Part shown: positions 11,931 to 36,510 of the stretch, piece after piece
Position numbering within the stretch: position 1 is the stretch's first letter
Layout: every line of letters starts with the position of its first letter
DNA from: Thermofilum uzonense
GTDB lineage: Archaea > Thermoproteota > Thermoprotei > Thermofilales > Thermofilaceae
DNA length: 64,000 bases
Direction: 5' to 3'
Assembly (NCBI RefSeq): GCF_000993805.1
Contig: NZ_CP009961.1
Span: 210,001 to 274,000, forward strand
Program-made: the position numbers and the translations under genes
The notes under the pieces: model-generated
Seen by the model: only the letters and a program-made list of their open reading frames with translations
Databases searched by the model: none
Told to the model about the DNA's origin: nothing

Positions 11931-11978
11931 AGGTGACTTGCGGAACTTATAAATCCCGCATTAACAGTAAAATATCAG

Positions 11979-12027
11979 ATGATGAGGGTTTCTGGTTCAG
12001 ACTTGTGAAGAAAGCTTGATTAGCTGA
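11979..12027 (+). ncRNA. C/D-box guide sRNA candidate 1
   Basis: All archaeal C/D sRNA elements occur in order: box C ATGATGA (11979-11985), a 12-nt guide, D' CAGA (11998-12001), a 3-nt spacer, C' GTGAAGA (12005-12011), a 12-nt guide and box D CTGA (12024-12027). The equal 12-nt C-D' and C'-D distances are the expected geometry for an archaeal dual-guide RNP. TATAAAT at 11949-11955 is about 26 bp upstream of the predicted 5' end. The D' guide GGGTTTCTGGTT shares ten bases with the D guide of the 34137-34187 candidate. It would direct 2'-O-methylation by fibrillarin; the target is unidentified. Confidence 0.7.
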
Positions 12028-34059: not shown

Positions 34060-34136
34060 AAACTTTCTAAACTTGTTGTCCGAGCATGGCTTACCCACTT
34101 GTTAAATTTTTATAATTTTTCTCCATATAGAGGTGG

Positions 34137-34187
34137 ATGATGAGTGAACTCCCCGTCATGAAAGATGAAGAGGTTTCTGGTCGCTGA
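34137..34187 (+). ncRNA. C/D-box guide sRNA candidate 2
   Basis: Box C ATGATGA (34137-34143), a 14-nt guide, D' ATGA (34158-34161), a 3-nt spacer, C' ATGAAGA (34165-34171), a 12-nt guide GGTTTCTGGTCG and box D CTGA (34184-34187). A TATA-like TTTTTATAAT at 34108-34117 is about 25 bp upstream of the predicted 5' end. The C'-D spacing is exactly 12 nt, as in the first candidate, and the D guide shares GGTTTCTGGT with that candidate's D' guide. It lies in the gap between convergent genes ending at 34059 and 34226. Guide function is inferred; D' is imperfect. Confidence 0.7.
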
Positions 34188-34225: not shown

Positions 34226-34981
34226 TTATGAGCTTATCAGTTCGTACACCTTGTCTTCGAGTGCTTGAAAATCTGCTGATCTTCTATCCCGAGGGCGTGG
34301 AAGGTTAATATCAACAATTCCTGCTATTTTGGCGGGTCTTGCCGTTAAAACTATCACTCTATCAGCCATCAATATAGCCTCATCGACGCTGTGGGTCACC
34401 ATAAGGATTGTTCTAACTGAAGTCACCCCCCACAACCAAAGGTCTAAAACTTCGGAGCGAAGAGACTCGGCAGTCAAAGGATCCAAAGCAGAGAAAGGCT
34501 CATCCATAAGTAGAAGAACAGGCTCTATGGCCAATGCCCGTGCGAGATTAACCCTTTGTCGCATGCCTCCGCTGAGCTCACGTGGATAGAAGTCTTCGAA
34601 GGAAGCTAAACCTACTAGCGATAAATACTTACGCGCTCTCTCTTTAGCCTCCTGCCATGATAAGCCATTCACCCTCAGCGGGAGTGCCACATTTTCGAGG
34701 ACACTCATCCAAGGTAATAAGGTCGGGAACTGGAAAACAAATCCTATTCTAGCATCCTTTGAGGTAAAAATAATCTCGCCCCCATCTGGCTTCTCGAGTC
34801 CTGCTATAATCCTGAGAAGCGTCGTCTTCCCGCAACCAGATGGTCCTAGTATAGCTACGAACTCCTCTCCGATGTCAACGGAAATTCCATCAATAACCTT
34901 CAAAGTCTTCGAGTCCTCTGTGAATGACTTCGTGATATTCCTGAGTGAAAGAATAACCTTGCCTCTACTTATTCCACTCAC
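34226..34981 (-). CDS. ABC transporter ATP-binding protein, nitrate/sulfonate/taurine type
   Basis: 251 residues from the GTG at 34981, whose first base is the last base of the permease stop (TAGTG overlap); a longer frame up to 35032 would intrude into the permease gene. Walker A is LGPSGCGKTTLLRIIAG, the ABC signature is LSGGMRQRVNLARAL, and Walker B is VLLLMDEPFSALDPLT, followed by the His switch (MVTHSVDEAI). It energises the fused permease encoded immediately upstream. The AAA-associated C-terminal domain found fused in some members is absent here but encoded at 36591-37085. Confidence 0.92.
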   Translation of the reverse strand: MSGISRGKVILSLRNITKSFTEDSKTLKVIDGISVDIGEEFVAILGPSGCGKTTLLRIIAGLEKPDGGEIIFTSKDARIGFVFQFPTLLPWMSVLENVALPLRVNGLSWQEAKERARKYLSLVGLASFEDFYPRELSGGMRQRVNLARALAIEPVLLLMDEPFSALDPLTAESLRSEVLDLWLWGVTSVRTILMVTHSVDEAILMADRVIVLTARPAKIAGIVDINLPRPRDRRSADFQALEDKVYELISS

Positions 34982-36510
34982 TAATCTTCCCCCCCGTACT
35001 TGCCCTCTATATATTTGAAAAACCTCGACCATAAAGTCTTGTTGATTAAGACTATTACTGATGAAAGAAGAAGGGCTGAAACTACTAGTCCCTCAACGTC
35101 TCCCTGTATTGCTAGCCTGTTAAGCAGTGCACCAACGCCTCCTATGTCAATGCTGTGATCACCCACCACAACATACTCTGCCACCACGCTGGCGTTCCAA
35201 GCACCACCCCAAGCGCTCAAGGCTCCAGTTGCGATTGAAGGAAGAAGGGAGGGCACGAAGACATATCGTATGAAAGGTACTCCACGTATTTTATAAACCG
35301 AGGAAAGCTCTTCAAGGTCCTTTCTGATGCTTGAAAGGCCGTATACAATTATGTTGTAATAAAGATACCAAAAAGCTCCCTGCAGAAAGACTATCAGGGA
35401 TACTATGTAAGCCCCATAACTATAACCAAGTGCGATTGCGGCTAGCAAGGGCCACCAAATAATGGCTGGTATGGAGGCTAAGATTTCGCCAATAATTGAT
35501 AAGGCCCCACCTAAGAGGACATTTCTATACGAGATAAATGCGACAAGCAACGATAACGAAAGGGATAGTAGTAGGATAAACACGATACGTGCAAGCGTTA
35601 TCGGTATTTCATAGAGGACAGCTAGCATCTTCGGTAGAAAGTTAGGAAGCCCAATACTTCCCAGGCCCGCTATAATGTTTAGGGCAAAAATCACTAAAGC
35701 TACTAAGATTGAGAGCCTTATTAAAAACCCCAATATTTTCTCGAACTTTTTGAGTTTTTTTTCAACGACTAAAGACAACTCACCCAATCCCCCCCATGTG
35801 GCTGCAACAATATCATGGATCTTGTCATAAACCGCTGTAAAGCTAGGCAAATTTAAGCCGAGATTCTTGGAGGCAGCCGGGTTCCAAATCAAGAAGTAGG
35901 TTAGGGTGATTATCAATAATAACAATGCTACTCCCAGATAAAATCCTAATAGGTTGCCCGAATTGAACTGCTCTATTATAAAGCTTCCGAGGCCTGTCAC
36001 TCTATACTCGGAACTACCAAGCGATACTACTTCTGCTGATGTTAAGAAGAACCATCCTCCAGCCCATGATACCAGGCTGTTTGCTATAAGAGACCTACGG
36101 GAGACAGGTGCATATATAAAGAAGAAGCGGGCAGCGTGCCCAAAATTATAAGCCTTCACTAGGTCATCATATGAAGGGTCGAGGGATTTGACGGAGGAGT
36201 AGACCCCGAATATCATGTTCCAGACAAGGCTTGTCCAGATCAAGAATATGGATGCCAGCTCTACACCGATTCTCTCAGGGAAATATGTTACAAATAAGAT
36301 TAGAGCTGCTGGGAAGAAGCCTAGTATCGGGATCGATTGTAAAATATCCAATATCGGTAAAAGGATGCTCTCCACTGTTTTGTTCTTTGCCATAGCGCTT
36401 CCAATGAGCAAAGCTGTAAGGACGGATAGAACATAAGCGGCTAGCATTCTGAAAAGGCTCGCGGTTGCTGCTGCTAAGAGCATTGTGTAGAGAGGCACGC
36501 TGTCCACCAC
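34981..36510 (-). CDS. Fused double permease of a NitT/TauT-type ABC transporter
   Basis: 509 residues containing two complete permease domains in tandem. Each has an EAA-loop: DLVKAYNFGHAARFFFIYAPVSRRSLIANSLVSWAGGWFF in the first half and ELSSVYKIRGVPFIRYVFVPSLLPSIATGALSAWGGAWNAS in the second, separated by a hydrophilic linker around residues 235-265. About twelve to thirteen membrane helices are predicted. A single chain with both halves can form the whole channel. No substrate-binding protein is in the window, so the substrate is unknown. The next gene is the ATPase, with TAGTG overlap; divergent from the AAA-associated domain gene. Confidence 0.88.
   Translation of the reverse strand: MVDSVPLYTMLLAAATASLFRMLAAYVLSVLTALLIGSAMAKNKTVESILLPILDILQSIPILGFFPAALILFVTYFPERIGVELASIFLIWTSLVWNMIFGVYSSVKSLDPSYDDLVKAYNFGHAARFFFIYAPVSRRSLIANSLVSWAGGWFFLTSAEVVSLGSSEYRVTGLGSFIIEQFNSGNLLGFYLGVALLLLIITLTYFLIWNPAASKNLGLNLPSFTAVYDKIHDIVAATWGGLGELSLVVEKKLKKFEKILGFLIRLSILVALVIFALNIIAGLGSIGLPNFLPKMLAVLYEIPITLARIVFILLLSLSLSLLVAFISYRNVLLGGALSIIGEILASIPAIIWWPLLAAIALGYSYGAYIVSLIVFLQGAFWYLYYNIIVYGLSSIRKDLEELSSVYKIRGVPFIRYVFVPSLLPSIATGALSAWGGAWNASVVAEYVVVGDHSIDIGGVGALLNRLAIQGDVEGLVVSALLLSSVIVLINKTLWSRFFKYIEGKYGGED

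Follow-up and report, generated by a model that had tools for sequence, protein, structure and literature searches.

Two archaeal dual-guide C/D-box sRNAs with a conserved one-base offset, predicted to methylate adjacent nucleotides in domain II of 23S rRNA

The window analysed here is a stretch of 64,000 nucleotides, positions 210001-274000 of the complete 1.61-Mb genome of a heat-loving archaeon, for which the 16S and 23S genes were also mapped. When both strands of the window were scanned strictly (RTGATGA, 34-50 nt, CTGA), only two matches emerged, RNA A and RNA B, both of which are intergenic. RNA A is flanked by an amino-acid permease gene and a small ORF; RNA B is flanked by a 255-aa ORF on one side and, on the other, by a convergent ABC ATPase gene (34226-35032). 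The latter gene is adjoined by a permease-like ORF of 509 aa (34981-36510, minus strand), apparently made of two tandem transporter halves. For the protein of a neighbouring gene, the closest named relative is Thermofilum sp. NZ13 (60% identity); in that organism, the sole named relative examined for synteny, no RNA B copy adjoins the gene. The features of the two RNAs are as follows.

11946-11956, plus strand: TATA-like element CTTATAAATCC 5' of RNA A, presumed promoter
11979-12027, plus strand: RNA A, C/D-box sRNA, box C through box D (scan, box reading, homologues)
11979-11985, plus strand: box C of RNA A, ATGATGA (sequence)
11986-11997, plus strand: D' guide of RNA A, GGGTTTCTGGTT; 10 pairs with 23S 822-831 and a G-U at 821; N+5 = A825
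11998-12001, plus strand: box D' of RNA A, irregular CAGA (CTGA in several homologues)
12005-12011, plus strand: box C' of RNA A, GTGAAGA (sequence)
12012-12023, plus strand: D guide of RNA A, AAGCTTGATTAG; 9 pairs with 23S 941-949; N+5 = U943; covariation in genome G190
12024-12027, plus strand: box D of RNA A, CTGA (sequence)
34107-34120, plus strand: A/T-rich TATA-like element TTTTTATAATTTTT 5' of RNA B, presumed promoter
34137-34187, plus strand: RNA B, C/D-box sRNA, box C through box D (scan, box reading, homologues)
34137-34143, plus strand: box C of RNA B, ATGATGA (sequence)
34144-34156, plus strand: D' guide of RNA B, GTGAACTCCCCGT; 12 Watson-Crick pairs with 23S 691-702; N+5 = G694; kept in homologues
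34157-34161, plus strand: box D' of RNA B, irregular CATGA (CTGA or GTGA in most homologues)
34165-34171, plus strand: box C' of RNA B, ATGAAGA (sequence)
34172-34183, plus strand: D guide of RNA B, GGTTTCTGGTCG; 11 pairs with 23S 821-831; N+5 = C824
34184-34187, plus strand: box D of RNA B, CTGA (sequence)

In both RNAs, box C (RUGAUGA) and box D (CUGA) are separated by the spacing of about 40-45 nt used to define the class, and internal D' and C' boxes are present, the D' boxes of the window copies being irregular (CAGA in A, CATGA in B), which could weaken or shift modification at the D' guides. All four guides are complementary to a stable RNA, the 23S rRNA, with the N+5 nucleotide paired; the guides are conserved in relatives, and for the D guide of RNA A, guide and target covary. 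Judged from sequence, both belong to the archaeal dual-guide C/D-box sRNAs, an established kind of RNA, and they are presumably expressed. A TATA-like element lies about 25-30 nt 5' of both, and such words occur upstream of 25 of 41 copies of the A and B families, against 8% of random positions. A sigma-70 promoter scan was empty, as that model is inapplicable to archaea. Rfam gave no match to A or B at the gathering threshold, and such a match is not defining for an archaeal C/D-box sRNA; archaeal C/D RNAs are poorly represented in annotation (PMC7994747).

The two RNAs share a ten-mer, GGTTTCTGGT, which has exactly two copies in the window (11987-11996 and 34172-34181) where 0.15 are expected; two copies were reached in 2 of 100 window shuffles. 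The original prediction held that the shared bases are shifted by one base relative to the box, and indeed one base separates them from D' in A and two separate them from D in B. It further held that the two guides share a target containing ACCAGAAACC, where they would methylate an A and the preceding C. This word occurs once in the rRNA of the genome, at 23S 822-831, and the N+5 nucleotides are C824 for B and A825 for A, as predicted. Lack of a match in stable RNAs had been named as a refutation of the prediction; the search did not refute it, the word being present in the organism's own 23S rRNA. By the N+5 rule, RNA B should methylate C824 and RNA A should methylate A825. Genome-wide, ACCAGAAACC has five copies: the one in 23S, two that are the complements of the A and B guides, and two elsewhere lacking an evident C box.

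Each of the four guides matches rRNA best in domain II of the 23S of the same genome, where 9-12 Watson-Crick pairs run without interruption. Matches of these lengths arise for 0.1-1.4% of shuffled guides, and ten pairs for about 1% of the 12-mers in the window. By alignment, the N+5 sites A825, U943, G694 (G693) and C824 correspond to E. coli 23S 673, 788, 584 (583) and 672. The alternative for the D' guide of B arises at its box, which is irregular here and in two relatives (L025, L028), with one base more in the guide; reading the box as ATGA moves the target from G694 to G693. This may be a one-base register change inside one family.

Both RNAs have homologues across the order and outside it. 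Full-length B-type RNAs, carrying both guides, occur in 17 genomes of the class, together with one partial copy, and A-type RNAs in 15; in the alignments of the two families, boxes and guides are conserved and spacers vary. The A counts come from a corrected pattern, as the initial one, TGANNNGTTTCTGGTT, was mis-spaced and gave zero matches, its own genome included. The B pattern fixed the two-base register by construction, and the A pattern left the D' register free; one base precedes D' in 14 of 14 aligned A copies. The conservation of the B D' guide, the A D guide and the A D' register is independent evidence, since these were absent from the search patterns. Both registers are found together in ten genomes (G000, G004, G005, G009, G010, G015, G016, G017, G038, G041). 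RNA B was not found in the congeners G001, G003 and G006 (95-99% completeness), which have A; the pair is thus not obligatory. Leftover GGTTTCTGGT sites from congeners were rejected as homologues, not being C/D-like. A near-identical guide+D word, GTTTCTGGTCGCTGAGAAAA(A)TTCAGC..., was likewise set aside: it occurs without a C box in three families (L010, L014, L233, L245; genomes including G024, G033 and G289) and looks like a mobile-element end that matches the guide+D word by chance.

In homologues, the one-base register of A and the two-base register of B stay constant, even where a guide has switched sides (D' or D) or acquired a new partner. In L197 (genome G038), the A guides have traded their D' and D positions and one base still stands between the shared guide and its box, while B in the same genome retains two; in L170 (G041) and L173 (G061), the B guide is next to D', with two bases in between. 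In genomes of family f9, the B guide is at D with a different D' guide, and the A D guide has another partner. A phylum scan for GTTTCTGGT-N1-3-CTGA in 398 genomes, which is register-neutral and needs a canonical CTGA, found C/D-like contexts in 11 of 45 matches with one base, 26 of 55 with two and 0 of 16 with three (one and two bases against three, Fisher p = 0.0025, indicative only, as the genomes are related). The exact register has thus been kept over long times despite guide moves and partner changes, which suggests that the choice of nucleotide, beyond mere binding to the region, is under selection. A and B are not recent duplicates, since their second guides are unrelated and each register is conserved separately.

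Exchange of guide modules is also visible elsewhere in these families. In L191-L195, L198, L204 and L205, from several genomes outside the order, the partner of the A D guide (GCTTGATT) is another D' guide, CATGGGAACG or close to it, which is itself conserved. The B guide stands at D' with a conserved D guide containing ACCCTGCC in L268, L269, L173 and L277, from distant families.

Among the genomes checked, the target segment shared by A and B hardly varies, so that conservation of the shared guide is not evidence of covariation. In fragmented assemblies that lack a full 23S, all ACCAGAAACC sites were probed, but the 23S region in question was in none of them. The second guide of A is more informative. 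G190, a genome outside the class whose 23S was located by reading 800 kb of the main contig, has a swapped A-type RNA with the partner guide GGGCTAGATTG, compared with AAGCTTGATT in the window; its 23S reads CAATCTAGCCC, with CCAATCTAGCCC where the window genome has CCAATCAAGCTC, so that two guide changes meet two matched 23S changes. The G190 guide reaches -21.1 kcal/mol on its own target and -13.5 on that of the window genome, and the window A D guide -11.4 on its own and -5.9 on the G190 target; each guide pairs best with its own 23S, the energies being compared within one guide, not across guides. A weaker case concerns the D' guide of B, which contains CCCTGG in G038 where the 23S of another genome of the same family has CCAGGG; covariation for this guide is only suggestive.

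The Rfam archaeal LSU model RF02540 provides the structural context. In it, 699-711 pairs with 808-820 in a 13-pair helix, with the shared segment starting at the end of its 3' strand; 959-962 forms a short helix with C823, C824 and G826, A825 staying unpaired, and 830-835 pairs with 947-952. The site of the B D' guide, 691-702, begins just 5' of the 5' strand of helix 699-711/808-820 and runs into it, and that of the A D guide, 941-949, covers a linker and the first part of the partner strand of 830-835. RNA B is thereby placed to pair beside both ends of helix 699-711/808-820, and RNA A beside both strands of helices 823-826/959-962 and 830-835/947-952.

We propose, with a probability of roughly 85%, that A and B are dual guides forming a one-base-offset pair on 23S 821-831 that specifies adjacent methylations. 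Both RNAs would direct the fibrillarin-Nop5-L7Ae enzyme to 23S domain II, where 821-831 would be paired by the B D guide and, one base away, by the A D' guide, leading to methylation of C824 and A825, respectively. The two pairings are mutually exclusive, because both need this segment, and A and B would have to act in succession. During methylation, each RNA would bridge two sides of a helix.

An alternative that we consider improbable is that both are real 23S C/D sRNAs and only one of the shared guides is productive, most likely that of B with its canonical D box; one nucleotide would be methylated, and the other guide, by its irregular D' box, would mainly bind or bridge the rRNA as a folding chaperone. 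Binding without methylation has been discussed for archaeal guides (PMC4644070), and the D' box of A, CAGA in the window, is CCGA or CGGA in several homologues. However, the A homologues L063 and L066-L068 have a canonical CTGA at D' in the same one-base register, and the swapped copies L197, L235, L246 and L247 carry the guide by a canonical D box, again with one base. The retention of two separate registers in such canonical-box homologues also argues against redundant guides marking one nucleotide, the offset being compensated by alternative five-base D' boxes, as for yeast U18 and snR13. Irregular D' boxes can shift modification by one nucleotide (PMC5389607), but the yeast shift goes away from the box (N+6) and would move A from A825 to G826, not to C824; we regard this explanation as very unlikely. 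Slighter still is the chance that the ten shared bases reflect coincidence or recent duplication, with one or neither candidate functional. The two shuffles with two ten-mer copies could be cited in its favour, but A and B each have conserved homologues in many genomes, their second guides are unrelated and have separate 23S targets, and one family has guide-target covariation; coincidence and recent duplication were rejected on the conservation and the unrelated second guides.

Returning to the one-base-offset pair, we tentatively extend it to an ordered relay at the domain II hub, an idea that we hold to be possible and rather unlikely, in which the large subunit, as it assembles at high temperature, goes through two folding steps in succession, accompanied by methylation of C824 and A825. 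RNA B would tie 821-831 to a segment 130 nt upstream, and RNA A would tie it to one 118 nt downstream; helix 699-711/808-820 would close first, followed by 823-826/959-962 and 830-835/947-952. The one-base-offset pair itself would offer a natural case of two RNA-guided enzymes forced to alternate on one rRNA segment. A one-base difference first spotted by eye has become a testable pair of predicted methylations.

Like the archaeal dual-guide C/D-box sRNAs already described (Dennis et al. 2015, PMC4644070; review PMC7994747), A and B have C, D', C' and D boxes, two guides of about 12 nt, the N+5 rule and nearby rRNA targets. Archaeal guides have a reported hotspot at H35/35a of domain II, dual guides have been proposed as bridges between rRNA segments, and guide modules are reported to move between the D and D' sides (all PMC4644070, PMC7994747). 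The original prediction called paired guides with one-base offsets a known way to modify adjacent sites; the literature does hold neighbouring sites, and the wording was loose, since these come from indels in duplicates or from single yeast snoRNAs. Neighbouring predicted sites in archaea have been ascribed to indels in duplicated guides (PMC4644070). A literature search, conducted without supplementary tables and Lui et al. 2018, found no description of the A/B pair.

Two yeast systems come closest. We take the segment of yeast 25S rRNA with sites 805 and 807 to be homologous to the archaeal one, its sites presumably lying 1-3 nt downstream of those of A and B. The U18 guide pairs elsewhere in 25S, and U18 was dropped as a guide for the A/B segment. 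In yeast, snR39/snR59 (Am807) and snR39b (Gm805) are separate snoRNAs with overlapping sites in 25S rRNA; mutually exclusive snoRNA sites are common, and release of these three needs the helicase Prp43 (PMC2806949). They resemble A and B as separate C/D RNAs with overlapping pairing and near-neighbour methylation, but their sites are two bases apart and those of A and B are adjacent. Yeast U18 and snR13 each modify two adjacent nucleotides (PMC5389607) in one target region, as predicted for A and B; there, however, a single snoRNA does so through alternative C'/D' folds, whereas A and B are two RNAs with fixed, different registers. Compared with the described archaeal guides, A and B are two unrelated dual guides on one hub segment, their one-base offset kept per family across the order and beyond. 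The new part would be this conserved one-base-offset pair on a common hub segment; A and B themselves are a well-supported further case within an established kind of RNA, not a system of a new kind.
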